64,000 nucleotides of DNA, from positions 210,379-274,378 of the forward strand of contig JAAWCQ010000009.1 in assembly GCA_022793335.1 (NCBI GenBank). Direction: 5' to 3'. The notes beneath the pieces are model-generated. The model was not told where the DNA came from, searched no databases, and saw only the letters and a program-made list of their open reading frames with translations. Position 1 is the first letter of the stretch. Each line of letters starts with the position of its first letter. This stretch comes from Clostridia bacterium. GTDB lineage: Bacteria > Bacillota > Clostridia > Christensenellales > UBA1242. Shown one piece after another: positions 33,889 to 58,693 of this stretch. A program made the position numbers and the translations under genes.

Positions 33889-34620
33889 TTAATTTATTCC
33901 GAGTGCGTCACCGATAACATTTTTAATATCAATCGACTCCGCCACCTTTCCAGAAAGTGAGTCAATCGCTGATTGTTGTCCACCAATTATCAGTCTATCA
34001 CCCGCCTCTAAAACAGTCTCTGCGTCAGGTGTAATAACTTCGTTTCCTCTCTTTATATAGATGATTGAAACTTTTGCTTTCTTTCTTACATTAAGCTCGC
34101 CAATTGTCTTTTCTGCCCAGCTTTCTGGCATTGCGATTTCCACAATATTTACATCATGTGAAAGGTCGAGAAGTCTGTTTACACTTGGCTCGTCTAGTAT
34201 GCTTGCAATTTTTTTGCCCATATAAACTTCTGGGAAAATTACTATATTAGCGCCCACCTCTTCAAGAATTATCTTTTGCTGTTCGCTTTGGGCTTTGGCA
34301 ACTATGAAGCCAATTCCAAGTTGTTTACAAAAGGAAGTAATAAGCACGCTTGACTCAAAGCTCTCGCCTATAGCAACAATGGCACAATCAAAGTTTTGTG
34401 CGCCCAAGGATTTTAGCACTTCAATGCTTGAGCAGTCCGCCGCAACTGCGCTTGAGACTACATTTTCCACCTCTTTTAAATTTTTCGCCTCTTTATCTAC
34501 CGCCAATACTTGATGGCCAAGTTGAGCAAGAGTGGTCGCAGCTGTTATGCCAAACCTTCCAAGTCCGATAACCAAAAAGTCATTCATACCTTTTGCAATT
34601 TTGATTTCTTTGCTTTCCAT
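33889..34620 (-). CDS. ktrA: K+ uptake regulatory subunit KtrA/TrkA-type
   Basis: 243 residues from the ATG at 34620, which has AAGGAG 6 nt upstream; a longer reading to a TTG at 34641 is rejected. The RCK-N Rossmann domain starts FLVIGLGRFGITAATTLAQLGHQVLAVD (GxGxxG plus the Asp that binds adenine ribose). The RCK-C domain (~165-230) ends LEAGDRLIIGG. It forms gating rings on KtrB. RCK-C domains of KtrA proteins bind c-di-AMP in Firmicutes. It follows ktrB by 10 bp. Confidence 0.92.
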   Translation of the reverse strand: MESKEIKIAKGMNDFLVIGLGRFGITAATTLAQLGHQVLAVDKEAKNLKEVENVVSSAVAADCSSIEVLKSLGAQNFDCAIVAIGESFESSVLITSFCKQLGIGFIVAKAQSEQQKIILEEVGANIVIFPEVYMGKKIASILDEPSVNRLLDLSHDVNIVEIAMPESWAEKTIGELNVRKKAKVSIIYIKRGNEVITPDAETVLEAGDRLIIGGQQSAIDSLSGKVAESIDIKNVIGDALGIN

Positions 34621-34630
34621 TTCTATCTCC

Positions 34631-35986
34631 TTATCCCACAATTATTTTTGAATCTGGATATTCAATTTCTATATTATTATTTTTTCTTCCCAGCAGAACG
34701 GCGAATGTCAAGAGTCCCACCCTGCCTAAAAACATAAGCACACACAAAACCAGTTTGCTTCCGACAGTCAACAGCGGCGTTATGCCAAGCGTAAGCCCGG
34801 TTGTGCAAATGGCAGATACCACCTCAAAAATCACTTCAGTAAGAGAAAAAGCGTTTCCTTCAATTACAACTAAAAGGCAGCAACCAACCATGATTGTTGA
34901 AAGCATGATCAAAAACAGTTTTAAGCATTTATGTAAAGTATTGCTTGAAATTGTCCTTTTCCCAAACACAATTCCGCCGTTTTTGTTTGGCATTTTAAAC
35001 ATATAAAGAATTAGAATAAGCATTGTTGTCGTTTTAAGGCCACCAGCAGTTGAGACTGGGCTTCCGCCAATAAACATAAGCAGTGTTGTAAGTGCCTTGC
35101 TTGGAGCGGTCATTGCTGCCTGATTTATCGCACTAAAGCCCGCTGTTCGCGGAGTTACACTCTGAAACAAGCCATTTACAATCTTTTGGCCAACGCTCAT
35201 ATTGCCGATGGTTAATGGATTGTTCCACTCAAAAATCATAAATAAGATTGCGCTTCCAAACACAAGCACGCCAGTTATACTTAAAACCAACACGCTGTGA
35301 AAGGATAGCCTTCTTTTTTCCTTTGGTTTTCTTTTTCTGATTATATCATAAATTACTACAAAGCCCACACTGCCCACGATAATCAAACATATCACTGGCA
35401 AAAGCACCAATACATTTTGTGAAAAGACGCTCATACCTGCAAACAGATTTTCTTTCGAGCCAAACAAGTCCATTCCAGAATTGCAAAAGGCAGATATTGA
35501 AAGAAACAATGCTTTGAAACAGCCATCCCAAAAGCCATATTTTATTGCAAGCGAAGGTACTAGGCATACAAAGCCAATAAATTCTGCAATAAGGGTGATT
35601 AAAACAATTTTGATAAGCTCTTTTACAACGCCTTGATTGTCATCTTTGTTGAGGCTTTCTTTGATTGTCAATCTTTGCTCAAAAGACAACTTTTTGCCAA
35701 ACACCATAAAAATCATGGATGAAATAGTCACAAAACCAAGTCCGCCAATTTGGATGAGCAGCATAACTATTATCTTCCCAAAAAGAGAAAAATGAACAGC
35801 CAAGTCCACTGTTGTAAGCCCTGTAACACAAACGGCACTGGTGCTTACAAAAAATGAGTCCACAAATGAAAACCATTTTCCATCAGCAGAAGAAATTGGT
35901 AAACATAGAAAAAATGTGCCTATCAAGATTACAATCAAAAAGCTTAAAATAATTTTAAGTGCCACTGGCGGCTTAAATTTTTTCAT
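34631..35986 (-). CDS. ktrB: K+ transporter membrane subunit KtrB/TrkH-type
   Basis: 451 residues. Four pore-loop motifs are visible: AVCVTGLTT, SAFCNSGMDLF, TPRTAGFS and ICTTGLTLG, each with the filter Gly. About ten membrane helices. It encodes the Na+- or H+-coupled K+ channel-like subunit that works with KtrA downstream. The ATG is only 8 nt from a TATAAT box with no ribosome site, so the mRNA may be leaderless. Confidence 0.93.
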   Translation of the reverse strand: MKKFKPPVALKIILSFLIVILIGTFFLCLPISSADGKWFSFVDSFFVSTSAVCVTGLTTVDLAVHFSLFGKIIVMLLIQIGGLGFVTISSMIFMVFGKKLSFEQRLTIKESLNKDDNQGVVKELIKIVLITLIAEFIGFVCLVPSLAIKYGFWDGCFKALFLSISAFCNSGMDLFGSKENLFAGMSVFSQNVLVLLPVICLIIVGSVGFVVIYDIIRKRKPKEKRRLSFHSVLVLSITGVLVFGSAILFMIFEWNNPLTIGNMSVGQKIVNGLFQSVTPRTAGFSAINQAAMTAPSKALTTLLMFIGGSPVSTAGGLKTTTMLILILYMFKMPNKNGGIVFGKRTISSNTLHKCLKLFLIMLSTIMVGCCLLVVIEGNAFSLTEVIFEVVSAICTTGLTLGITPLLTVGSKLVLCVLMFLGRVGLLTFAVLLGRKNNNIEIEYPDSKIIVG

Positions 35987-41431: not shown

Positions 41432-42406
41432 ATGAATACTTTTGAAAGCAGAATAAACCTTGCTTCACCACTTGAAAAGCTTGCAGAAGCTGTATGCTCG
41501 CATTATAAGCTTGGCGAGTTTAAAGGTTGCAAACTGATTGAAATTGGCTATGAAGATTACAACTTCATACTTTGGGCGGACGATAAAAAATATTTAGTAA
41601 AAGCTTTATCTACATTCAGAAATGATGAGGATTGTTTCAATCTGGCACAGCGTGCTGTCACCGCCTATGATAATGGTATTTCATGCCCCAAAATTTATAA
41701 AATAGATGGGCAAAATATAGGTCATGTCAAACTTGACAATGAAATTTTCAGAATTATTGTCATGGACTTTATTGATGGCAAAGATTTTTATTCGATGGAA
41801 GTATTGCCAGATGAAAATGAGCTTAAAATAATCGCAACCGAGCTTGCAAAGCTAAACAACATTGACTTTCAGCCACCTTTCATTTATGACCACTGGGCGA
41901 TAATCAATTTTGAAAAGGAATATAAAGAAAACATACATTTTGTAAAAGGAGAATTTAAAGATCTCATTGACAAAGTTTATGAAAAATATTTAAGCATTGA
42001 CATGAATAATCTTAAACACGGATTTGTTCATGGTGATATAATTGTGACAAACATTATAAAAGAAAAAGCTACAGGAAAGCTGTTTTTCATCGACTTTTCT
42101 GTGTCAAACTATCAACCACGCATAGTTGACCTTGCTGTTTCAATTTGTGACCTTTGTCTCGACTGCGATGATATAGAGCTTATAAAAACTCGAATGCAAA
42201 CCTTTATCAATGCCTATGAGCAAGTTTCGCCACTTTCTGACTATGAAAAAAGTTGTCTTAAAGTGTTCCTCGCCACTCACCAAGCAATAACCATAATTGA
42301 AACAACAAGAGAAAAGTTTAAAAACAACAATGACAGTGAAGAAAATGAAGATTTCTTGCGCAAGGGTCAAGAAGGACTAAAGCTTGTGCTTAGCCACCTT
42401 TTATAA
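41432..42406 (+). CDS. APH/choline-kinase-like phosphotransferase
   Basis: 324 residues. The catalytic loop is FVHGDIIVTNII (HGD with the metal Asn), followed by FFIDFSVSNYQPRIVDLAVSI, the DFx motif. An N-lobe Lys lies in KKYLVKAL. The fold phosphorylates aminoglycosides, choline or other small hydroxyl compounds; the substrate is not evident. AAGGAGAAAAAC site. It heads a cluster with a nucleotidyltransferase and a MazG-like protein, all on the plus strand. Confidence 0.82.
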   Translation: MNTFESRINLASPLEKLAEAVCSHYKLGEFKGCKLIEIGYEDYNFILWADDKKYLVKALSTFRNDEDCFNLAQRAVTAYDNGISCPKIYKIDGQNIGHVKLDNEIFRIIVMDFIDGKDFYSMEVLPDENELKIIATELAKLNNIDFQPPFIYDHWAIINFEKEYKENIHFVKGEFKDLIDKVYEKYLSIDMNNLKHGFVHGDIIVTNIIKEKATGKLFFIDFSVSNYQPRIVDLAVSICDLCLDCDDIELIKTRMQTFINAYEQVSPLSDYEKSCLKVFLATHQAITIIETTREKFKNNNDSEENEDFLRKGQEGLKLVLSHLL

Positions 42407-42480
42407 ATTATTGCGGATATGAATTTGAGATTTTATATCAAACATACAAAAATAAATTATAAGACAATTAAGGAGATATT

Positions 42481-43272
42481 ATGTATAGCGAAAGCGACAG
42501 AGAGGCAGCCACTGATTTGATTACCACTATATTTTCTAGCGTTGATGAAGTAAAAGCAATTTATCTAGTCGGGTCAAACGCAAGAGGTAATGCTGATGTT
42601 TATAGTGATGTTGATATTTCAATGATAATAGAAAATGAGAGTATTGAAAAGGTTTGGGCAGCTGCTGAGAAAATCTTGCTTAAAACATTTCAGCCTTTTC
42701 GCCTTTTTCTTAATGTTTATAATAAAGAAAGCTTTATCATTGGCTTATGTCTTCAAAATGGGCTTGAAATCGACATCGGTTTTTGCAGTTTGCAGCAATT
42801 TATAAGCAAAAAATCTTCACGAATAGACATGAATAGCATTCTTTTATACAGCAAGAACGGCTTTGAATTGCCACAGATTTCATTTAAAATTTCAAACAAT
42901 ATTTCAGAGCTAGTTGAAAAACGCAATAGTGATTTATGGTATGATTTTACAAATGCCTTTATCGCTTTAAAACGCAATCAAATTTTCCGTGCTGCAAATG
43001 AAATTGAATCAATTCGCAGTCAGCTTATTGAAATTTATGCCAAAGAAAAAGGGCTTGAACACAAACACTATCGGCATGTCGATTTATTTGAAGAAAACTT
43101 GAAAAACCAATTTCTAGATACCTACAGTAAAGCCACCTATAATGATTTCAAAAATAGTCTTTTAAAACTTTTAGAAATTTTCCTCAATATTTTAAAAAAG
43201 TTTGGTCAAGCAGAACAAGCCTTGCAATACCAAACACATTTTGAAAGCTTTATAAAAGACATTAAACTTTAA
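42481..43272 (+). CDS. Pol-beta-fold nucleotidyltransferase
   Basis: 263 residues. The motif AIYLVGSNARGNADVYSDVDISMII carries GS and the DVD metal pair; a third acid is probably in LEIDIGFC. The C-terminal helical half (about 140-260) resembles the helical domain of antibiotic or small-molecule adenylyltransferases. Substrate unknown. AAGGAGATATT site; 74 bp after the APH-like gene, suggesting one operon. Confidence 0.8.
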   Translation: MYSESDREAATDLITTIFSSVDEVKAIYLVGSNARGNADVYSDVDISMIIENESIEKVWAAAEKILLKTFQPFRLFLNVYNKESFIIGLCLQNGLEIDIGFCSLQQFISKKSSRIDMNSILLYSKNGFELPQISFKISNNISELVEKRNSDLWYDFTNAFIALKRNQIFRAANEIESIRSQLIEIYAKEKGLEHKHYRHVDLFEENLKNQFLDTYSKATYNDFKNSLLKLLEIFLNILKKFGQAEQALQYQTHFESFIKDIKL

Positions 43273-43304: not shown

Positions 43305-43616
43305 ATGATTGATTTAAACGAAATACAAAAACAAATTTATCAAAACAAAGTCAACAAAGGTTTTAATTTAACTGACATTTGCAAAGAGTTTTGCTATATT
43401 TATGGCGAAGTAGGCGAAGCTTATGAAGCTTACAACAAAAATTATGACCGCAAAGAGCTTGGAATGGAGCTTGCTGATATTGCGATATATCTTCTTGGTC
43501 TTTGCGAAATTCTTGGTTTTTCACTTGAAGATGAAGTGCTTAAGAAAATGAAGATAAATGAAAAACGCATTTATATTGATGGCAAAAAGATTGAGCCAAA
43601 AGATGCTGAAGAATAA
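43305..43616 (+). CDS. MazG-like NTP pyrophosphohydrolase
   Basis: 103 residues, a single MazG-type helical domain. GEVGEAYEAYNK and LGMELADIAIYLLGLCEILG provide the ExxE and ExxD metal-binding motifs. Such short proteins hydrolyse (d)NTPs or related nucleotides. AAGGAGAAAAA site. Last gene of the plus-strand cluster, followed by a terminator. Confidence 0.88.
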   Translation: MIDLNEIQKQIYQNKVNKGFNLTDICKEFCYIYGEVGEAYEAYNKNYDRKELGMELADIAIYLLGLCEILGFSLEDEVLKKMKINEKRIYIDGKKIEPKDAEE

Positions 43617-43769: not shown

Positions 43770-44525
43770 TTAGCCTTCCATAATCATCTTGTCTGCGATA
43801 AGGGCAATAAGCTCGCCATTGGTTGGCTTATCATTTGCTCCATAAATTTGAAGACCAAACAAGCTGTTGATATTTTCAATCTTTCCCCTATTCCAAGCGA
43901 CCTCAATGGCATGACGCATTCCGCGTTCTACCTTCGATGAGCTTGTCGAAAACTTCTCTGCAATTGTTGGATAAAGACGCTTTGTAATTGATGCAATAAT
44001 ATCTGGGTCAACCACTGCAAGTTTTACAGCCTCTCTTAAAAATTGATAACCCTTGATATGTGCAGGAATGCCAATGCTGATGAAAATGTTTGCAATCTTC
44101 TCATCCAAGACTTTGTCGCTGTCAGCGTTCAAAAGTGGATTTGCAAGGTCTTTAAGTCTCTCTTCAAGATTTTCTGGTGATACAGGTTTCACCATAAAAT
44201 AACTTGCCCCCTCTTTCATAGCCTTTGAAATAAATCCAGCATGTGAAAGATTTGAAACAAAGATGATTTTTGGAAGTCTTGCGCCCATTTCACTCTTAAG
44301 CATTTCAAGCACTTTAAATCCATCAGCGCCTGCAAGAAGCACTTCAGTGACAAGGAAATCAGGTTTTAATGAAACCACTTCACCTGCAATAACCATGCCG
44401 TCACTGCCCATTCCTACCACTTCAAATTCTTCATTTTTTGCGTCAAAATAATTTTTAAGTTTTTCCAGTTCTTCCTGTTCTGAATCTGCAAGATATACTT
44501 TAATTTTTTTTGTTGTGTTGTCCAT
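43770..44525 (-). CDS. spo0A: Spo0A-family regulator with altered phospho-acceptor
   Basis: 251 residues. The C-terminal domain (~145-250) is unmistakably Spo0A: GIPAHIKGYQFLREAV, ITKRLYPTIAEKF, VERGMRHAIEVAWNRG, SLFG and KPTNGELIALIADK. The N-terminal receiver domain is atypical. The site aligned with Asp56 of B. subtilis is Glu61 (LVTEVLLAGADG), the acidic pair is DS instead of DD (Asp14-Ser15), and the following MP is LA. The Ser and Lys switch residues (FVSNLS, MVKPVS) remain. This suggests a receiver not phosphorylated in the normal way, perhaps always active. AAAGGAG site preceded by a hairpin. Confidence 0.93.
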   Translation of the reverse strand: MDNTTKKIKVYLADSEQEELEKLKNYFDAKNEEFEVVGMGSDGMVIAGEVVSLKPDFLVTEVLLAGADGFKVLEMLKSEMGARLPKIIFVSNLSHAGFISKAMKEGASYFMVKPVSPENLEERLKDLANPLLNADSDKVLDEKIANIFISIGIPAHIKGYQFLREAVKLAVVDPDIIASITKRLYPTIAEKFSTSSSKVERGMRHAIEVAWNRGKIENINSLFGLQIYGANDKPTNGELIALIADKMIMEG

Positions 44526-44595: not shown

Positions 44596-44636
44596 CAAAA
44601 AAAAGCATAACTCGCACAAAAATATGGCGAGTTATG
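44596..44636 (-). terminator. Terminator of the lipoprotein gene
   Basis: Ten-bp perfect stem (CATAACTCGC/GCGAGTTATG) and eight Ts on the minus strand, after the 44678 gene. Confidence 0.9.
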
Positions 44637-44677
44637 TCGTAATCTGTCGGATTTTGTCGAAACGATTTTTTACCTGC

Positions 44678-46051
44678 TTATCCCTTTCTTCCGATAAGTT
44701 GAGTATTTCCTTGCATGTCTGTTCTGAACATATAATAACGGCCGTCTTCTTTTGGCTTATCGTCTTCATCCATATCATCAATTTCTGGATAAACAATCTT
44801 TGAATAGAAATAGATATATTCGCCGTCATAGCCGCATTGACCAGAAACAAGCTCTTTTCCTTCTTCAAGAGAGAGGATTGTTTCGATTTCTTTGTTGACA
44901 GTGTTTATTCTTTTAATAGTAGAAGAATTTGACACATAGATTTGGTCATCTTCAATAAACAGAATGTCACTGTATTGTTCACTTGTAAGCAGGAGCGTAG
45001 AGCTTGCGTTTAATTCTTTATACATTAAAGCGCCGCCGCTTGTCTTGAAGGCATAGCCCTCGCCTGCTTTTTGAATTTCTTTTATAGTTGTGGCATTATA
45101 AAACTTTTGTGTTGGACTGAAATTGCTTTCGCCATTTGCAATGCTCTTATAATAGATTTCTTGAACGCCTTTGTAGGTGTAAGAATAGAACACAACATCT
45201 CCCACTCTGCCAACGAAGCTCAAAGTAGAGCCTGTTACGCCATTATCGAGGTCAGTTGTCTCGCCGCTTGCAAAGTCAACCGCCTTAACTGAAGTTGTGG
45301 CAATTGTTTGAGTAGGCTCTGAAGCAATAGTGTAAACCACATTTTTCACGCTTGACGCTTCATCTGCAATGGCATAAGAAGTTGCTTTTTCAGCAATGGT
45401 CTTGATTTTTCCAATGTTGTTTCCAATTTTAAGTGATTTGATTGAGAAAGTATTGTTTTCAGTTGGCTCTGCAATGATATAATAATAATTATTATCGCTG
45501 CCCTTTTGAACAGTTATTGTGCTGCCTTCTCCAGTTTTGAAAGCGCTGTTTTTTACAATTTCACTGAAGTCGTCACCATTGAATTTTACTCTGAAAAGAG
45601 AAACTCTTGTATAGTCATTTTCAAGTTGGTTTGTCTGGTGAGTGTTTGCAGAAGTGAAGTAGATATATTCGCCAAGAGCAAACATATCTTGGTTTTGATA
45701 ACCTACAAGTTTGCCATCATTGACTTTTTCAACTTGATTTGGGCTTGAAACAGGCTTAAGTTGGTCTGTCACCTTATCTCCAAATGTGAGATTTTGTGAT
45801 TTGTTAAGGCGTGAAAGATAGCCTGTCTTTGCTGCTTCACCATACTTAAAATTCTCTTCACTTGATGAAGTAAAGCCATTTCCGAAATATACATAATCGC
45901 CAACAACAACCACTTGACCTTGATTGTATTGAATATTTTCAAAATAGGCATCTTTTCCATTTATTTTTACATTTGACACTGTCGCACAGCCAGTCAAGAA
46001 GATTGCTGCGCAGAATATTAGTGCAAATACTTTCAATATTTTCTTTTTCAT
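44678..46051 (-). CDS. Lipoprotein, probable beta-propeller
   Basis: 457 residues. Signal peptide with a good lipobox (IFLTGC, Cys22). The mature part is built of repeated strands containing YIYF/VVFYSY/YYYI motifs (e.g. GEYIYFTSANT, DGEYIYFYSKIV), typical of secreted propellers such as DUF5050-type proteins. The C-terminus is rich in Asp/Glu (DDMDEDDKPKEDGR). Monocistronic; function unknown. Confidence 0.75.
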   Translation of the reverse strand: MKKKILKVFALIFCAAIFLTGCATVSNVKINGKDAYFENIQYNQGQVVVVGDYVYFGNGFTSSSEENFKYGEAAKTGYLSRLNKSQNLTFGDKVTDQLKPVSSPNQVEKVNDGKLVGYQNQDMFALGEYIYFTSANTHQTNQLENDYTRVSLFRVKFNGDDFSEIVKNSAFKTGEGSTITVQKGSDNNYYYIIAEPTENNTFSIKSLKIGNNIGKIKTIAEKATSYAIADEASSVKNVVYTIASEPTQTIATTSVKAVDFASGETTDLDNGVTGSTLSFVGRVGDVVFYSYTYKGVQEIYYKSIANGESNFSPTQKFYNATTIKEIQKAGEGYAFKTSGGALMYKELNASSTLLLTSEQYSDILFIEDDQIYVSNSSTIKRINTVNKEIETILSLEEGKELVSGQCGYDGEYIYFYSKIVYPEIDDMDEDDKPKEDGRYYMFRTDMQGNTQLIGRKG

Positions 46052-48844: not shown

Positions 48845-51800
48845 TTATTGAATATAAGCTGTAAAGCCGCTTTCAGTTTGACGCACCTTAAGCACCTTTC
48901 CATCTTTGCAAGTAATGTCATCAACTTGAATTTCGCTTGAGTCAACGCCAGAGCCCGAATTATTTGAAGCATATATTTTGCCCTTTATAATTGGGTTTGA
49001 TTGACTGCTGCTGATGATTGCCTGACCAGAAACTGTTTCAACCAAAGTATTCAAAATTCCGCTTACCACTTGATAAGCAACTCCACTCTTATAGAAGTTT
49101 GCTCTTGAAGAAGTGGTTTGCATTCTTCCATTATTATAAAGATATTCAAGTGTGCCGTTTATGCTTGTGATAGTTATGCCGGCGTAATAACCTGTTGGAA
49201 CAATCTCGCTGGTTGTAGTTGAAAGCTTAAAGTTTGCATCATTTCCGCAAAGTGAAATAGTTGCAACATTTGCAAGTGAAATTCCTGCCATATAAACAGT
49301 GGTGTTGTTGACTGAAACTCGAATTTCTTTGTCTCCTCTGTTTCGGCAGTTTGAAATCTCGCCCTTGCTCTCTCTTTCGCCAGTGTCAATGCCATTGAAT
49401 AACGCAATTCCGCCATAGCCAAATTCCAGCTTAAGTTGTTGTTGCATGTTGTAATTAAATTCGCTGAAGTTTGTGCAGTATTGCACCTTTCCATAGTTTA
49501 CGCCTGTCACGCCACCAACAAAGACAATGTTTTCGCTGCCCTTTCCTTTAAGGTTTATATTGAAAGGCACTTTGTCATTGCCAACAGACTGATTTACATT
49601 CACATTTCGAATTGTACCATAGTTTAAAGCACAAATTGGGGCATAGATTATGCTTGAGTTATCAAGTCCTTCATTATTCACTTGATAGTTTACTCCCAAG
49701 TTTTCAACAACCGCATCATAAGAAATTGCACGGAACAGCGCTGAATAACTTGTGAAGGTCTTATTTGTCATTACAGTAAAGCTGATTGGACTATCAAGCG
49801 CAACAGTCTTAGAAAGGTTTAAATTGATTTTAAAGCCATTTCCGTCAAGATGAGCATAAAACTCATCAATCCAAGCCTTATCTTTGCCATTTTCAGTTGT
49901 CACAAATTCGTTTAAATCAACTGTGATGTTGCTGCCCAGTCTGAAATATGCACCTTCGTTGTTTCTAAGTGCAATGTTTTTGAAATCTGCATCACTATTT
50001 ATGATATATGGTGACTCTGCACTTCCATTTCCACTTGCAAACAAATAATAAGTAAACGCTTTCGCCTCATATACCTTTTCTTCGCTGAAAATGAAAAGTG
50101 AGTTGTCTTCATCATTTATCAATCTCGCCTTAATAGTGAAGGCATTTTCAAGGATTGTTCCATTACTGTTTTTAGGACAATAATAATTATCGCTTACAAA
50201 GGCAGTTTCTTCCTTGCCGCTTACCGTCACTTTGACATAATAGCCATAGATGTTTGAATTATCTTCTGGCCAAGCCCACTCAAAGCGTTTAAGCCTGTCA
50301 TTCCAGCTTATTTCCAAGCCGTCATTTGAGGTATTGGTTGTATTTAGCATCTCTCTGTCACTGCTCAAAAGCTTTTTAAGGTTAAGCTGAGTGCTGCTTT
50401 GTGCATCTTGAGCTTGGAAACTTACGCTTATTGCGTCATCAGGAATTTCCAATATCATCGAGTAAGCATTATTTGTAAATACAAATTCTTTGTCGCCCTC
50501 CGCAGTAGTCACTGTTGCAACGAGTTTATATAAATCTTTTCTATCTTGAATTGAGATGTTTTGGAAATATTTTGAGAAATCAATGCCTGTATTGCCATTT
50601 ATAAGCACCACTTCATAATATTTCTCTTGAATTTTTGCAAGTTTATAAATATCGCTTATTGCCAGCGGAGCTGAAACAATTGCATTGTTTCCTTGGCTGT
50701 CTTCGCCATAGACATAAACTTTCACTGTAAATGTGCCATTGGCGTCATTCAACTGCCCGTCATCTAAGGCAAAGCTTGCAAATATAAACTCTGACTCATT
50801 TGAAGCTGTTGTCGTATAGAAGGTATAATTTCCCTTAAGCTCCAATTGCATATCATTGCCACCAGAACGATATTCGGCCACGATAGAAAGTCTTTGCGCG
50901 ATTTTCTCATGGTTTTCACCGTCAAGGACGCTGTCTCCAGAAGGGATAAAGGATGGTCTGTCAATAACAAATGTTATCGCACCATTTTTTACACCAACAT
51001 TGTTTTGAGCAAGCGTTGGAGTTTTTGCCCTTGAAACATAGTTGTTTGTGCTTGCAACCATGCTCTTAAGTGCAAATGCGCCGTCAATGGCAAATTTAAC
51101 ACCATTATCAATATGGAAAATATCACCTTCAATTGTCTTTATAGTTGACGCTGACGCACTTTCCGCCCTCTTTCCTGCAATGATATTCACATAAAATTTG
51201 TAATATGAATAAGCTGCGTCAATGATTTGACCTTTTACCGCTTGAATTGTTTCTTCTGCATTTCGCACACTGTAAATTGTCTCTTCACGACTTAATAAAT
51301 AGTTGTTTTGATTGAAATTATCTTTGATGTAATATTCAATTTTAATTTCATAGAGAAGCTCGCCTTCTTCCAGCCCTTCCATTTCTTCCAAGCTTTCTAT
51401 TTGAAGATTTCCCTTCTCAATTTGAACGCTGTCCACCCTGTCAAGCATTCTTGCATTTACTTGAGCGAATGCTGAAGAGAGCACCGGTCTTTGTTTTTTA
51501 GTCGCCTTTGCATTATCAGGGTCAGGCACTTCCATGCCTATGTTTGATGGAACAAACTCAAGTTTATATTCAGCATTGAGTATTTCGCCTTCCTCAGTCT
51601 GCCCAATTTTAAACTCACCGCTGTTTCCGCTTAAATAAGCCTTATATTGACTTGCCGTCAATTCAGAGTTGTAAAGCACATCTCCGTTTGCCTTTAAAAG
51701 ACCTGCAATATAAAGTGGCACAGATTGGTTTCCAACAAATTCACTTTGGTAATAGAAGCCCTTGTCGTCACCACTATATTCATCACTAAGGCTGACATCA

Positions 51801-54800
51801 TTGCCCATGAAATATTTCAATGCACCGCTTGCCTCTGAAGCACTTGTATTTGTAGGACTATAAGAAATCGCAATTCCGCCATTTTTAATCTCTAATACAG
51901 GCGCTGAAAGCTTATAGATATCCTTGATTTCATAAGTGGAGCTTTCAACATTCAATGTATTTGAAGTATAAGAGCCATTTATTGAAAGCACAAGATAGTC
52001 ATAATATCCATGTTCTGTCAGATTTATGACAGCACGCTTGTTTTCAAAACGCACCATCTTGCTTGTCATAGAAGAGCCGCGTTTTTTGTATCTTACATAA
52101 AGCTCAATTGACTCGCTGTTTTCGGTTTCAACCACAAATTGTCCGTCAATGAAGTGAATTGAATCACCCTTAAGGTCAAGATAACGCAAATTAAATCTTC
52201 CGCTCTTGCCATTGACTACAAAGCCATTGTCTTGGTTGTAAGCCAATAAATCTGCTACATACATTGTATTGATTTTTATTTCATCACCCTCTCGCTTATT
52301 TTCAAGTTTGTCAAACTCTTGGCGAAGAAGGGTCATATTAAGCTTAAACTTTGGCACTCCGCCAATGCTTTCATCCATGCTTGTCACTACATCAGCAAGC
52401 TCTTGCTCGCCATACATAAGTGACCACTTTGCCCCTATTTCATCATATAAAATGATAAAATCAAGGGTTTTTGCTCTTAGGTTGTTTTTATCAAACTCAG
52501 CCTTCTCGCGAAGTTGAAGTTTATATTTAAGTGCTGTAATTTCTGTGTATGCAATGTTTCCGTCTTCTTCTGCCTCATCTGAAACTTTCACTCTGGTTGG
52601 AGCTGGAGATACATAAACCATATAATTTTCTTTGCTTGGCTTATTGCTTCCATCTTCGCTCAACACAGTTTCAGTGCCAAGCACCACTTCAGGCGCTGGA
52701 GAAACATAAATTCTCACACCTTCTGATGCATCAGATTCAATATTCTTATCATAAGAAGCTTGGCTGAGACTTAATTTATATTCGCCAGCTGGGATATTTC
52801 TGCCAAAGTCATCAAACAGGAAGGCATTATCAGAAAGCCCTCTTGGAGAAAGCAACATATAGCTTATCATGCTGTTGACAGCATCGGCAAACTCGTTTCC
52901 TGCAAGTTTGGTTTGATAATTTGCAAGCAGGTCAAAATATGACCTTGTAGTTTGACCTCCAACCAGCATATTTGTATAGTCGGTGTTTTTAACTTCTATT
53001 TCTATGTCAGGGAAAAGGTAATAACCCGGCATTGACACATTATAAAATTCATTTGTCTCGCCGTCATTGTTGACTCTTCTTAAATTGAGAGTCACATTAT
53101 AATATCTGAAAAATTGTGCGTAGAAGAAATAAGGTGTGTTGTAAATTGATTTTAATGCCACCTCATAATAAGGTGTTGCAGGTTTTTCCACTCCAAAGAA
53201 GTCTTCAATGTCTTTAAAGAATTTTGACTCTCTAAACTTTTGTTCTTGGAATACAACCTTTCCATTTTTGACTTCAATTCCAAGAGGCTTATCAAATTGA
53301 AGGGTGTCAATTTTTTGTTTTGACTTATTTGAAGCCAAAATATTGTTTTCATAACTGATTGCAGTCACAAAAATCTGATAATTTATGTTTGTATTAAGCT
53401 TTGCCAATCTTAAATCATAGTTTGTGGCAGTTGTTTCAACTTTCAATGCCATCTCACCAGTTTTCTCTGATACAAATTCAATAATGAACGATGTTGCCCT
53501 TATTTCACTATATTGTTTCTCAACATCTTCAAGTGTCCAGCTGAATCTCAAGAAATTATTGGATATGCTTATATCATTATCATTTTGAGAAACTGCATTC
53601 AATTTATAAATATCATAAACTGTGCTTCCATATTGATAGAACGCCCCATCACCATCTTTGCCAATTCTGGCCACTTCGATATTTACATCACCGTAAGGCA
53701 CCTGTGCTAAAACATCGTTTAAGCAAATTGCATAGACCTTTGTGAAAGTATAATCTGAAAGCTCGCCCATGTCATCTGGGATTGCTCCTTCTGACTTTGT
53801 AAAGAAGCTGTGCTTGCCTTCTTTATCTTTTGCCCAATAGCCTGCAACCTCATCAGCTGCAAGGAAGACTTCTGTGTCTTGTTTTGTAATTGTTTTCTCT
53901 TCTTCATTTATCTGGAATGCATTGAAAACAACTCTAAATGCAATTGTTTCAATGCTGTCGTTCTCATAAGAGAATACAATATAATCTTTATCCTTTTCAT
54001 CCACACGCAATAATTGTGGCAATGAGTCAAGGATATAATTAAATTCAAGTTTTTGATAGTTTGACTTGATTGACTCTTCTCGTCTCACTGCAAACTCAAA
54101 AGTTTCATTGCTTGCAGGAATTGACGCCGTCGCACCAAATTGTTGAAGAAGTTTAAGCATTGAAATATAAAATTTGTTTTCATTTTCTTTATCTTGAACA
54201 ACCTCAAAGTCTTTGACAACATCCCCTCTTCTAGCTGTGAAAATCACGCCTTCCATGTCATCCATAAAGATTGTAAAACTTATTCTGCCAAGCTGGTCAA
54301 TTTCGATTTTCTCAATCCCTTTGAGTTTATAGCCGTTTTCAAAATTGAAAGTATCATTTGCTGGCAAAATTACGCTATTTTCATCATAAGTCAAAATCTT
54401 GATGGTATAAGCGCCATATTTATTAAGCAGCAAGTCTTCACTTACAAGATTGAGTGTTTTTTCTTCTATCAACTTTCTTTCAAACTTTTCTCCATCAGCG
54501 GTTGTGATTTCAACAATATAACTTCCGCCAGTTTGTTCATCTAAAATGGTAAGCAGACCATTACCGTCCACAACAGCCTCTTTCGTCTGCGCAAACTTTC
54601 TTATTGAAAGCTGAGAAATTTCACTGCTTATAGACTGCGCTTTCTTAACCTGAATTTGCACATCAATGGTGCCAGCATCAAAGTTTTTAAGAATGAGGTT
54701 TGAAAGGGTAAGAGTATATTTTCCATCTTTGTTTATAAAGCTGTAAAGTATATTTGTGTATGGTGCGGTCAAATTCATTTCAACAGGGTCTTTTCCGTCA

Positions 54801-57800
54801 CCAATTTTGACATTAAAGGAAATTCCGCTTAAATCTTCCCATTTGTCTGCGAATGCTATTTCAAGCACACTTCCCTGTTTTCTTTCAATTTCTGTTGAAG
54901 CTGAAAGGTTTTCTACAACCGTCACAGTAATATCATCAATTTCTGCAAGTTTGATTGTAGAAATTGCAATCTCTTCTGTTTTACCATAATAGCCTATGCT
55001 TGTTTCATTTATTGCATCAAGATTATATGGGCTGTCTATTGCTGCCATAACCTTGATTGAAACATCTCCTCCAAGTTTGCTGCCAAGCAATGTTTCAATT
55101 TCATCAAGAGTCAAGCTTGTTTTGTCTTTAAATGAAAGTGTTTTATTAAGTGAGCCGCTCTTAACATTGACAAGATATGAAAGTGGGTTTAAATTGTTTC
55201 CTGCCATGTCAGCAGCAAGCTCTGTCCAAGTAATTTGACTGTCTTCAATCGCTGCGACAAACCCACAAGACGCAAGGTCGATAAGGGTGAAGTTTATTGC
55301 TTGAGAGTCGATATAATAATTTATTTCACCCTCATTTTTTGCTTTTACAACAATGCTGAAACGATTGTCGTTAAACTGACTTGGTTTGAATGAGGCTACA
55401 CTTTCGCCAGGCACAAAGCTGACATTTTCGTTGCTGCCATTAACAAGCACGCTTTCGATATTTGCCGTATCATCAATGAAAGTGATAGATGCAACATAAT
55501 CTTCACCACTCTTTGCCACAGCGACTTTTTCAGGCTTTGCAAGTTGTTTTACATAGATTGGACTTGAAAGCTCTGACTCAAGCATTGAAGGATGAGTGGC
55601 CTTTACAGTAATCTTTCTCTTTCTTGCAAGCTGCGAGAGTGCGTTTTCAAAAGAATATTGCCCGCCAGAATATCCGCCTTGATATAAAATGTCGTCAAGA
55701 TAGATTTCATATAATGAGCCAACCTCTTGCACCTGCCAAGCAAGAGTTTTAAGGCTTGGATTGAAAGTTAAAACAGGTTTGTCAAGTTTGTTTAGAGGCA
55801 GTGTTGTTCCGCCATAGATTGTGCTTGCTTTTGTTGATGAAAGATAATAGATGCCATCTTTCATTGAATTTGCATAAGAGATAAATTCAATTTCAATTCC
55901 TTCAGCCTGCCTATATGCTGAATAAAATTCGCCGTCATTCTTGCATAGGTCATTGATTTTTGTTTGTATATCAAACTCGTTGCCCTTTGCGTCAATATTG
56001 AAACGCTTTGAATAATCAGAAGTGTTTGAATTTTTCAATATAATTGAGACTTGGTGACTTTCTATATTTGAGTCTTGATTTGTCCAGCTCAGTTTTCCAT
56101 AAGAATACTTAAGTGAGGTGGCGGCTTTAATTCTATTAAATTCCACCACACGCTCATGACTGCTGATAAAATTGCCTTCTGTATTGGCAATCATTGTCAT
56201 TCCAAGAGTAAACTCTGTGCCAAATTTTGTTTTATCACTCATGTCAAGGCTGTATTTTTCACCTTCAATCAACTCGCCATTCAATGTAAATGCAACATGG
56301 TCAGAGCCGTTTTGAAGGTTTACTTTAAGCTTATGTCCAACTATCTCATCAAAGACTGTGATGACATCCTCAACTGAAATTTCTGGAGCAGCAAGCCTTG
56401 TCACATTTAAAATATATTCTTGAGAATCAAGATAGATATTTGGGTCATAAAGTTTTCCACCACAAGCAACAACTTTAATTTCATGGTTGCCTTCTTCAGC
56501 AAAATCACTTGCGAAAACATAGGTTATTTTTTCTTTAATTTCACTTAAATTTATATTGCCGTCAAGCTCTCCATCAACATAAATCTTATATTCACTTGCA
56601 TAAGCAACTGTTGAAATATTGAGTTTATAAACATTTCCCTCTTGAACAAATTTTGCCGACGGCATTTCAATGTCCTTTGTCACTTTGAAATTTACACGCC
56701 TTACATTTACACTGCTGAAAAAGTCAGAATCTAAATATTGATCGAAATCAACAGACTTTGATGTAATGGCAATCACGTAATAGCCCTCATCAAGAGTTTT
56801 GCTGATTTGTGTATTCGAGATATCGTTTTCTTCAAGCACAGGCTCGCCACTTGCTAAATAATCTTTGTCAGTTTTATAAATTATATAATCATACAGGCAG
56901 TCAATTCCTTCAAGCCCAAGCCATTGAAAATCACCATTTTGTTGCTCTAAAGCAGGCTCCACCAAAGGTAAAATTTTTAGAGTTTTTTGATTTACTGAAC
57001 GAAGAGAATGCTCGACCTCTTCAATTTTAATTCCGCACGCTATTTCAATGTTGTATTCATCTCCATCTGGTGCATAAGCACTTAAAGGAGAAGAAAGGCT
57101 GAGTAAAATTTTATTGCCAAGATCAATATAAGAGCTTTCGGCAAGCGAACCATTTATGTAAATATAATAGAAATTTGCTTGAGGCACTTTGTCAAATTCA
57201 AATTGAGAATTTTCTGCTTCAAGGTTATGCTTAATCTCCCCCAGCTTTCCAAGTTTGTAAAAATCAAAACTGAAATAGTCTGAATCAACCACAATATTGG
57301 AAGCCATCTCGCCCAAGCTAAATTCTTTAACTCCATTTTGACTGCTTTCATCAGCTGTTGGAAGTGCTTTAATCAAAAGCTTATATTCGCCCACTTCAAT
57401 AGAAGAGAGGTCAATTCGATGTTCAAGCCCATTTTGAGTGCTGTAAATCTCGCTTTTTTCACCATAAGAGATGAAATAATTTATGTTGTAGTCATTTTCT
57501 TCAAAATTAAGCACCATTTCATTGCCATCGAAGGTCACTTCCACATTTGGCTTTTCAAGTTTTGCAACATAAATTTTATTTGAAATTTTGCTTGAAATAT
57601 AAAACTCGCCATCTTTGTTTCCGCCAAGTGCGATAAGCTCCACTCCATAAATGCCTTTTTCAAAGCCCTCTAAATTATCAAGAAATGTTCCTTTCTCGTT
57701 TTCGACTTTGAATAACTTTTCAACTTCTGTCTCAACATTTTTTGCCTTAATCAAAAATGAAGTTGCTTTTTCAATTGTGTTTGAAGTCAGCATGCCAGAG

Positions 57801-58693
57801 CCTTCTTGATAAGAATAATTAAGCTGTGCTTTTTGAAGCATCTTGACTGGATAAGCTGTTCTTGAAGGATTTTTCTTGCCTTCAATGTCCTTTACATAAA
57901 TATCAACTAAAAGCGTTTGCCCCTCTTGGAATTTTGAGAAATCAGTTGTAAAGAAACTTGTTTGCAAATCTTGCGCAACTCTTATTCCATTTATGTAAAG
58001 GTCATAATTTGCGCCCTCTACAGCATCCCACTTAAGCGTTGCCTTTTGGTTGAATTCTTCACCAACAGAAACATTAAAATTATCAGCCCAAGCCATAACA
58101 CCATAATGAAGGCTTTGGCTTTTTAAAATTGAGCCATCAATGTCAACTCTGTTTGATATCGCCTTAATGCTTACATCATAAGAGCCCACATTATCAAATA
58201 CGAAAGCATTTTCATTCACTTCAAGTTTCACGGTATTATTTTCATCGTGAAGCTTGTAAGTCACCTCATAAGCATGTGCATATACTCTTTCGCCATTTAT
58301 TATTACAAAGCTTTTGTCCCAGCTAACCCTTCCATTGTCGTCAACCTTGACATTTTCTGGGCTGCTGAATTGTTGTTTAACTATTACTTCCGCCTTAGCT
58401 ATCGTCTGATTTTGATATTTGGCAAATATGAAAGCGCTTCCAAAATCTTTTGCGGAAAACAAATTTCGATTTTCACAAGATAAAACATTATCATTTGAAG
58501 AAAAGATTTCAATTTTGGCCTTGTCTGTCCCTTTGACTGAAAGCTCATCATAAAAATCTATCGTCGCATATTGAGATAGATAATAAGTTTCTTTTTCAAA
58601 TTTTCCAGTCACACTTGGTTTTGTATTGCAAGCCACAAACATGGTTGCTGAAAACAAAACAAGCATCAAGACAACAAAAAAGTTTCTTTTCAT
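48845..58693 (-). CDS. Giant surface lipoprotein with repeated Ig/FN3-like domains
   Basis: 3,282 residues, by far the largest gene here. Signal peptide and lipobox MFVAC (Cys22). Most of the mature chain (about 30-2870) is a series of ~90-residue beta modules. Recurrent openings of the type LAKPEKVAV or LEKPNVEV are followed by strands such as LSWTNQDSNIESHQVSI or YEIYLDDILY, like fibronectin-III/Ig-like repeats. The last ~395 residues begin GNGSAESPYIINSDADF and resemble a beta-helix/GLUG-type domain (GVTGVNYGKVQYC). No catalytic motif, LPxTG or S-layer homology motif was seen. It is probably an adhesin or carbohydrate-binding stalk. The frame is open throughout. Confidence 0.85.
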   Translation of the reverse strand: MKRNFFVVLMLVLFSATMFVACNTKPSVTGKFEKETYYLSQYATIDFYDELSVKGTDKAKIEIFSSNDNVLSCENRNLFSAKDFGSAFIFAKYQNQTIAKAEVIVKQQFSSPENVKVDDNGRVSWDKSFVIINGERVYAHAYEVTYKLHDENNTVKLEVNENAFVFDNVGSYDVSIKAISNRVDIDGSILKSQSLHYGVMAWADNFNVSVGEEFNQKATLKWDAVEGANYDLYINGIRVAQDLQTSFFTTDFSKFQEGQTLLVDIYVKDIEGKKNPSRTAYPVKMLQKAQLNYSYQEGSGMLTSNTIEKATSFLIKAKNVETEVEKLFKVENEKGTFLDNLEGFEKGIYGVELIALGGNKDGEFYISSKISNKIYVAKLEKPNVEVTFDGNEMVLNFEENDYNINYFISYGEKSEIYSTQNGLEHRIDLSSIEVGEYKLLIKALPTADESSQNGVKEFSLGEMASNIVVDSDYFSFDFYKLGKLGEIKHNLEAENSQFEFDKVPQANFYYIYINGSLAESSYIDLGNKILLSLSSPLSAYAPDGDEYNIEIACGIKIEEVEHSLRSVNQKTLKILPLVEPALEQQNGDFQWLGLEGIDCLYDYIIYKTDKDYLASGEPVLEENDISNTQISKTLDEGYYVIAITSKSVDFDQYLDSDFFSSVNVRRVNFKVTKDIEMPSAKFVQEGNVYKLNISTVAYASEYKIYVDGELDGNINLSEIKEKITYVFASDFAEEGNHEIKVVACGGKLYDPNIYLDSQEYILNVTRLAAPEISVEDVITVFDEIVGHKLKVNLQNGSDHVAFTLNGELIEGEKYSLDMSDKTKFGTEFTLGMTMIANTEGNFISSHERVVEFNRIKAATSLKYSYGKLSWTNQDSNIESHQVSIILKNSNTSDYSKRFNIDAKGNEFDIQTKINDLCKNDGEFYSAYRQAEGIEIEFISYANSMKDGIYYLSSTKASTIYGGTTLPLNKLDKPVLTFNPSLKTLAWQVQEVGSLYEIYLDDILYQGGYSGGQYSFENALSQLARKRKITVKATHPSMLESELSSPIYVKQLAKPEKVAVAKSGEDYVASITFIDDTANIESVLVNGSNENVSFVPGESVASFKPSQFNDNRFSIVVKAKNEGEINYYIDSQAINFTLIDLASCGFVAAIEDSQITWTELAADMAGNNLNPLSYLVNVKSGSLNKTLSFKDKTSLTLDEIETLLGSKLGGDVSIKVMAAIDSPYNLDAINETSIGYYGKTEEIAISTIKLAEIDDITVTVVENLSASTEIERKQGSVLEIAFADKWEDLSGISFNVKIGDGKDPVEMNLTAPYTNILYSFINKDGKYTLTLSNLILKNFDAGTIDVQIQVKKAQSISSEISQLSIRKFAQTKEAVVDGNGLLTILDEQTGGSYIVEITTADGEKFERKLIEEKTLNLVSEDLLLNKYGAYTIKILTYDENSVILPANDTFNFENGYKLKGIEKIEIDQLGRISFTIFMDDMEGVIFTARRGDVVKDFEVVQDKENENKFYISMLKLLQQFGATASIPASNETFEFAVRREESIKSNYQKLEFNYILDSLPQLLRVDEKDKDYIVFSYENDSIETIAFRVVFNAFQINEEEKTITKQDTEVFLAADEVAGYWAKDKEGKHSFFTKSEGAIPDDMGELSDYTFTKVYAICLNDVLAQVPYGDVNIEVARIGKDGDGAFYQYGSTVYDIYKLNAVSQNDNDISISNNFLRFSWTLEDVEKQYSEIRATSFIIEFVSEKTGEMALKVETTATNYDLRLAKLNTNINYQIFVTAISYENNILASNKSKQKIDTLQFDKPLGIEVKNGKVVFQEQKFRESKFFKDIEDFFGVEKPATPYYEVALKSIYNTPYFFYAQFFRYYNVTLNLRRVNNDGETNEFYNVSMPGYYLFPDIEIEVKNTDYTNMLVGGQTTRSYFDLLANYQTKLAGNEFADAVNSMISYMLLSPRGLSDNAFLFDDFGRNIPAGEYKLSLSQASYDKNIESDASEGVRIYVSPAPEVVLGTETVLSEDGSNKPSKENYMVYVSPAPTRVKVSDEAEEDGNIAYTEITALKYKLQLREKAEFDKNNLRAKTLDFIILYDEIGAKWSLMYGEQELADVVTSMDESIGGVPKFKLNMTLLRQEFDKLENKREGDEIKINTMYVADLLAYNQDNGFVVNGKSGRFNLRYLDLKGDSIHFIDGQFVVETENSESIELYVRYKKRGSSMTSKMVRFENKRAVINLTEHGYYDYLVLSINGSYTSNTLNVESSTYEIKDIYKLSAPVLEIKNGGIAISYSPTNTSASEASGALKYFMGNDVSLSDEYSGDDKGFYYQSEFVGNQSVPLYIAGLLKANGDVLYNSELTASQYKAYLSGNSGEFKIGQTEEGEILNAEYKLEFVPSNIGMEVPDPDNAKATKKQRPVLSSAFAQVNARMLDRVDSVQIEKGNLQIESLEEMEGLEEGELLYEIKIEYYIKDNFNQNNYLLSREETIYSVRNAEETIQAVKGQIIDAAYSYYKFYVNIIAGKRAESASASTIKTIEGDIFHIDNGVKFAIDGAFALKSMVASTNNYVSRAKTPTLAQNNVGVKNGAITFVIDRPSFIPSGDSVLDGENHEKIAQRLSIVAEYRSGGNDMQLELKGNYTFYTTTASNESEFIFASFALDDGQLNDANGTFTVKVYVYGEDSQGNNAIVSAPLAISDIYKLAKIQEKYYEVVLINGNTGIDFSKYFQNISIQDRKDLYKLVATVTTAEGDKEFVFTNNAYSMILEIPDDAISVSFQAQDAQSSTQLNLKKLLSSDREMLNTTNTSNDGLEISWNDRLKRFEWAWPEDNSNIYGYYVKVTVSGKEETAFVSDNYYCPKNSNGTILENAFTIKARLINDEDNSLFIFSEEKVYEAKAFTYYLFASGNGSAESPYIINSDADFKNIALRNNEGAYFRLGSNITVDLNEFVTTENGKDKAWIDEFYAHLDGNGFKINLNLSKTVALDSPISFTVMTNKTFTSYSALFRAISYDAVVENLGVNYQVNNEGLDNSSIIYAPICALNYGTIRNVNVNQSVGNDKVPFNINLKGKGSENIVFVGGVTGVNYGKVQYCTNFSEFNYNMQQQLKLEFGYGGIALFNGIDTGERESKGEISNCRNRGDKEIRVSVNNTTVYMAGISLANVATISLCGNDANFKLSTTTSEIVPTGYYAGITITSINGTLEYLYNNGRMQTTSSRANFYKSGVAYQVVSGILNTLVETVSGQAIISSSQSNPIIKGKIYASNNSGSGVDSSEIQVDDITCKDGKVLKVRQTESGFTAYIQ

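Follow-up and report, generated by a model that had tools for sequence, protein, structure and literature searches.

A Spo0A ortholog whose receiver appears to have become an aspartate-less pseudo-receiver in a genus of small-genome gut Clostridia

Results

The spo0A locus

The gene studied here lies on the reverse strand of the window, by which we mean the whole stretch of 64,000 nucleotides that was analysed (Table 1). Its product exceeds the equivalog cut-off of the Spo0A family and also carries the Spo0A_C domain, which identifies it as a Spo0A ortholog. Residues 138–250 align with the solved Spo0A domain 1lq1 and the recognition helix is almost unaltered, in agreement with a preliminary description of this DNA that had called the DNA-binding domain highly conserved. 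No second full-length Spo0A was found in the genome of this organism; two further matches there consist of the C-domain only. The gene directly upstream encodes a lipoprotein, and its cluster is present in 59 of the 80 loci scanned, some of which are cut short. A hairpin with a T tail, missed by a terminator scan with a loop limit of 8, forms the terminator-like end of this lipoprotein gene.

Table 1. Features of the spo0A locus, in window positions (Bs, B. subtilis numbering)
Feature	Position	Strand	Evidence
spo0A with pseudo-receiver, 251 aa	43770..44525	(-)	TIGR02875, 219.1 bits vs cut-off 200
Receiver domain, about residues 6-127	44145..44510	(-)	profile match, alignment, predicted structure
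Spo0A_C DNA-binding domain, residues 144-246	43788..44096	(-)	PF08769, 127.9 bits; alignment with 1lq1
Asp14 codon, the one acid left in the DD pair (Bs D10)	44484..44486	(-)	Asp in 110/110 rows
Ser15 codon (Bs D11), second pocket acid gone	44481..44483	(-)	alignment, 110 rows
Glu61 codon, phospho-acceptor position (Bs D56)	44343..44345	(-)	E 106, D 4 of 110 rows
Lys113 codon, pocket lysine	44187..44189	(-)	Lys in 110/110 rows
Three putative 0A boxes, direct repeat, 10 bp apart, TTCGACA aaa TCCGACA gat TACGACA	44635..44661	(-)	
Hairpin with T tail, 10-bp stem, 11-base loop	44606..44636	(-)	between array and spo0A start
Lipoprotein gene directly upstream of spo0A, conserved neighbour	44678..46051	(-)	neighbour clustering

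Receiver-less Spo0A_C proteins of 106–153 aa, like the two of this genome (L002:1468-1911 on contig 11 and L003:437-832 on contig 15), form a diverse set found in many genomes of the genus and in some of the order (L207-L226, L028). Judged by eye, they mostly keep the VER..R motif of the recognition helix.

A receiver without its acceptor aspartate

The preliminary description had reported Glu at the phospho-acceptor site, Ser in place of one pocket Asp and loss of the Met-Pro motif, and the alignment bears out all three, with Leu-Ala now following the acceptor position. Asp14, Ser91 and Lys113 are retained. In the predicted structure, the pocket residues sit at the tips of the expected strands or just beyond, and Spo0A receivers rank among its top receiver matches, level with others. 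Neither the alignment nor the predicted structure brings another Asp to the acceptor position. By profile, alignment and predicted structure, this is a receiver fold that lacks the acceptor Asp, as in pseudo-receivers; Glu61 and Ser15 stand in place of the acceptor Asp and the Mg2+ acid pair of a phosphorylation-controlled Spo0A. By sequence, we class the protein as a Spo0A ortholog and, from its pocket, as a pseudo-receiver; as far as tested, it is not a Spo0A controlled by phosphorylation. The best explanation is a Spo0A ortholog belonging to a genus of gut Clostridia with small genomes, its receiver having turned into an aspartate-less pseudo-receiver.

To place residue 61 in its clade, we aligned the best 80 of 429 related loci in genome records with sequences from a second genome collection, comprising the organism's own genome and 29 relatives (30 of the 33 genomes of the genus with a full-length match). 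The resulting 110 rows, many of them one organism drawn twice, contain 86 distinct proteins. Glu61 is nearly fixed: 84 of the 86 have Glu at the acceptor position and two have Asp. Over all rows, the codons are GAA (76), GAG (30), GAC (2) and GAT (2). The best Spo0A match from 20 of 24 order relatives served as outgroup, second copies in some of them being left out, and has Asp in 18 cases and Glu in two. On a quick tree with these 20 relatives, the clade forms one group, the two Asp species (G007 and G023) are nested inside it, and at least four changes at the acceptor are required. Most simply, one Asp-to-Glu change preceded the clade (and is common to L115, support 82), a separate change occurred in L121, and two reversions followed; the two Asp members thus appear to be revertants, each by a single base (GAA/GAG to GAC/GAT).

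The acceptor position is always acidic (Glu or Asp) in the 110 rows. The adjacent pocket acid, at the position of Ser15, drifts freely (N 26, S 22, T 20, K 20, A 12, D 4, V 3, G 2, E 1), with Lys in 20 rows. No extra kinase or receiver was found in G007 and G023, which have four HATPase_c matches and one receiver each, G007 being only 84% complete. Since only Glu and Asp occur at position 61, and since the reversions occurred in genomes where no extra kinase or receiver was found, an acid is required there and its kind seems immaterial. Such interchange is hard to square with phosphorylation of that residue.

Residues invariant in the 86 distinct rows include D14, L64, D68, G69, F70, F89, H95, G97, F98, K101, A102, Y109, F110, M111, K113 and P114, some of which lie at the pocket and on the helix 4–strand 5 face. 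As judged by eye, H95 is absent from all 20 order relatives and G97 from all but L114; F98 is not specific to the clade.

Apparent loss of two-component partners

The organism's genome (1.41 Mb in 17 contigs) encodes one receiver domain in all, that of Spo0A itself. Its HATPase_c proteins are GyrB, a second subunit of GyrB/ParE type, SpoIIAB and MutL; none of these four is a histidine kinase, in a search by the HATPase_c profile, as distinct from HATPase_c_5, and in a genome that is 95.6% complete. The search for Spo0A kinases and other receivers thus returned none in this genome. Exactly one receiver was found in 29 of the 37 genomes of the genus, none in three and two to seven in five; the sole receiver of G012 is not Spo0A. 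HATPase_c matches number four or fewer in 30 of the 37 genomes and five or six in the other seven; the proteins were named one by one in the organism's own genome, from which we infer a like reading of the others. By comparison, counts in the 24 order relatives range from 5 to 46 for HATPase_c matches and from 2 to 62 for receivers.

A Spo0A independent of the phosphorelay, as proposed at the outset, is supported by the near-fixation of Glu61 together with a genome in which neither a histidine kinase nor another receiver was found. As judged from sequence, phosphorylation-independence is well supported; the mode of control set out below is what we infer.

0A-box arrays

In B. subtilis promoters such as abrB, 0A boxes stand in tandem at 10-bp spacing. 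From 44661 to 44635, ahead of spo0A, the coding strand reads TTCGACAaaaTCCGACAgatTACGACA, where putative boxes, called with what we take to be the 0A-box consensus, are spaced by one helical turn. The array holds the window's only exact TTTGTCGAA; because 1.06 such matches are expected by chance, this single one would be meaningless alone, and the spacing is what counts. Of 85 distinct regions ahead of spo0A, 31 have a box pair at 10 bp (up to 2 mismatches in 14; reverse strand 0, shuffles 0.25) and likewise 31 have one at 20 bp (reverse strand 2, shuffles 0.05), against 0 to 3 for any other spacing tested between 8 and 22. The box-to-box distances show maxima at 10 (23 pairs vs 0.05 expected) and at 20 (nine pairs vs 0.1 expected), and triples with up to 5 mismatches in 21 occur in 31 of the 85 regions (1 in reverse, shuffles none). 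A pair with 2 mismatches at most lies within 300 bp of spo0A at 5 of 20 outgroup loci, one of the five being of Glu type; autoregulation is therefore probably older than Glu61 and not unique to the Glu clade. In B. subtilis, according to PMC12090719, spo0A is autoregulated via 0A boxes; the putative boxes suggest the same here.

Allowing one mismatch, pairs are over-represented in the 37 genomes of the genus (89 vs 15 for a reversed control pattern) and not in the 24 order relatives (25 vs 31; all sums by hand). The organism's own genome has seven, vs 0 for the control, at least two of them inside long ORFs. No pair was found at one mismatch in five genomes of the genus (G001, G018, G021, G035 and G036). 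The four genomes in which no full-length Spo0A was found still have one to three pairs each, so the pairs may be used by other proteins, for instance the Spo0A_C paralogs that lack a receiver.

We inspected 50 pair loci, 20 by choice and 30 as best matches (eight from order relatives), with some places seen twice. In seven genomes (G000, G010, G012, G014, G015, G022 and G029), a pair precedes a sigK-like gene; three of the proteins were identified by profile and the others by eye, and the pair of G000 falls inside a mechanically called ORF, ahead of the SigK-matching part. Pairs also lie upstream of pdaB-like genes in two genomes (one protein profile-checked) and of alanine racemase (alr) genes in three (two profile-checked). 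The remaining inspected pairs are within ORFs or ahead of genes without evident link to sporulation. With up to 2 mismatches, no pair was found at spoIIAA (0/21) or spoIIGA (0/18); single degenerate boxes are present at 8 of 21 and 7 of 18, respectively, and by eye are partly in terminator loops of the upstream gene.

These terminators upstream of spoIIAA and spoIIGA (L141-L183) often have, by eye, a loop of the type TTTTTCAACAAAA or TTTTGACAAAA that looks like a degenerate 0A box. Just before the box pair at sigK-like genes (L236, L237, L239, L242, L262, L266, L272), a conserved GACAAGCA or GACTAGCA was observed, which presumably resembles a SpoIIID site.

Sporulation genes

The organism's genome encodes homologs of SpoIIAA/AB, SigF, SpoIIGA, SigE, SigG, SpoIVA, SpoIIE, SpoVA and SigK. 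SpoIIAA, SpoIIAB and SigF form one operon, and the classical order FtsA, FtsZ, SpoIIGA, SigE, SigG and YlmC-like protein is kept (Fts and YlmC names by eye). SpoIVA, SpoIIAB, SigG (NF006071) and SpoVAC/AEB score above curated cut-offs; SpoIIAA (equivalog), SigF, SigE, SpoIIGA, SpoIIE and SigK score below, the SigK-like factor only just. Across the 37 genomes of the genus, SpoIVA is present in 36, SpoIIE homologs in 35 (under the family cut-off), and both SpoVAC/SpoVAEB and SigF/SigG-type factors (the latter under the SigF cut-off) in all 37. The core sigma cascade, engulfment and dipicolinate-uptake homologs of an endospore former are thus present, and many of the core sporulation genes sought in this genome have homologs; alpha/beta SASP (PF00269) were found in none of the 37 genomes. 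They were found in 6 of the 24 order relatives and are missing from 18; their absence therefore does not track Glu61. Full-length Spo0A was not found in four of the 37 genomes (G006, G012, G017 and G032), which are drafts, so that this is loss or gap; these four keep SpoIVA and sporulation-type sigma factors.

A possible concentration switch and its alternatives

On the sequence evidence, we give an even chance to a mechanism in which the pseudo-receiver Spo0A acts without phosphate and binds box arrays cooperatively, entry into sporulation being set by its amount via autoregulation. Glu61, Asp14 and Lys113 would hold the receiver in, or near, a dimer-competent state without phosphate; cooperative binding to helically phased arrays would make the amount of Spo0A the signal; and the array at the spo0A promoter would close an autoregulatory loop, through which amount, not phosphorylation, would set entry into sporulation. 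The Spo0A of the window is probably controlled by its own amount through such autoregulation. An Asp-to-Glu change alone is often insufficient, Spo0A being among the examples named in PMC4395418, which speaks against a simple phosphomimic; further receiver changes would be needed, for which clade-invariant residues such as H95 and G97 are candidates. Median dN/dS is 0.31 for the receiver and 0.02 for the DNA-binding domain (87 pairs, mostly saturated), and this much faster evolution of the receiver counts against the best explanation. For the genus, we consider it slightly short of an even bet that the sporulation decision was taken out of two-component signalling, with kinases and other receivers lost, Spo0A frozen by the Asp-to-Glu change, and a concentration switch operating via phased 0A-box arrays at its own and sporulation genes.

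The pseudo-receiver might instead be gated at the conserved pocket and the helix 4–strand 5 face, whether by a small ligand, by a partner protein or by some other modification. Several receiver residues are invariant in the 86 rows, and the distribution of H95 and G97 among order relatives points to a possible surface specific to the clade; however, no ligand, kinase or partner emerged as a candidate, and the most constant neighbour is the lipoprotein gene, so we regard such gating as rather unlikely. It is improbable, in our view, that control of the arrays and of the sporulation genes belongs to the receiver-less Spo0A_C proteins, with the full-length Glu-type Spo0A in a secondary or modulating part. 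Such proteins are widespread in the genus and are present in the four genomes that have box pairs and no full-length Spo0A found, but they are divergent (the listed rows of the genus share 24–43% identity with the full-length query), and it is the full-length protein whose recognition helix is nearly unaltered.

Glu61 could also leave Spo0A inactive for sporulation, in a sporeless lineage that uses it in a vegetative role. A repurposed Spo0A in a lineage that no longer sporulates had been suggested in the preliminary description; the lack of SASP matches in the genus speaks for that part, as do the genomes missing full-length Spo0A, SpoIIE or SpoIVA, and the genus is known here from genomes, spores having never been observed. 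Sporulation genes are, according to a paper on Bacilli (PMC10868615), no proof of sporulation. Nevertheless, the near-universal retention of SpoIVA, SpoIIE homologs and SpoVAC/AEB, the box pairs at sigK-like, pdaB-like and alr genes, and the absence of SASP from most order relatives as well make a sporeless lineage less likely, and we hold it to be quite improbable. We see very little room for a Spo0A that is still phosphorylated, by an unrecognised kinase type or at another residue. The seven genomes with five or six HATPase_c matches, the five with two or more receivers and the two species that have Asp again would fit it, but no candidate kinase was found in the organism's own genome, 37 of 110 rows have Lys, Ala, Val or Gly in place of the second metal-binding acid, and the Asp species themselves have no more HATPase_c matches or receivers than noted above.

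Comparison with known systems

Spo0A is usually taken as a marker of sporulation, with its activity set by phosphorylation. The protein described here resembles the Spo0A of B. subtilis and Clostridia (TIGR02875) in domain order, DNA-binding domain, recognition helix, 0A-box sequence (as we take the consensus to be), and sporulation gene context, and resembles that of B. subtilis in spo0A autoregulation via 0A boxes (PMC12090719), for which putative boxes are the evidence here. It differs in having Glu at the acceptor in nearly the whole clade, in the loss of the second pocket acid, in that no kinase was identified, and in the over-representation of 10-bp-phased box pairs in this genus. Direct transfer from kinase to Spo0A in Clostridia and the Spo0F/Spo0B phosphorelay both end, as described in PMC6136694, in Spo0A phosphorylation; output protein and sporulation programme are the same here, whereas no phosphate donor was found.

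Aspartate-less receivers, such as ChxR, CmrT and RitR, are a known kind (PMC4395418, PMC12632262, PMC12548384). According to PMC4395418, they retain the first acid in 65% of cases and have an acidic second residue in only 29%, Glu being the commonest replacement (26%). The receiver of the window is like them in the lost acceptor, the first acid kept and the Glu replacement, and unlike them in being the sole receiver of its genome and part of the sporulation master regulator, in a setting where two-component signalling is largely lost. Spo0A is absent from the main text of PMC12632262, and our literature search found no report of an acceptor-less Spo0A clade or of sporulation genes without kinases. 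If our reading is true, the trigger of sporulation can be rewired, in a clade that has sporulation genes but no phosphorylatable Spo0A and mostly no kinases, and predicting sporulation control from kinases would fail in reduced genomes. The clade would also offer a natural phosphate-free Spo0A for structural work, and how pseudo-receivers are switched could then be tested directly, in a system whose output is clear.

Other genes of the window

A small MazG-like protein (43305-43616) adjoins spo0A. Also near spo0A, at 41432-43272, are two genes matching APH/choline kinase-type and streptomycin adenylyltransferase/nucleotidyltransferase families. The largest ORF of the window (48845-58693) spans 3282 residues and has a lipoprotein-like start. 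At 33889-35986, a TrkA-type regulator lies beside a putative potassium channel gene, the channel being recognised by eye.
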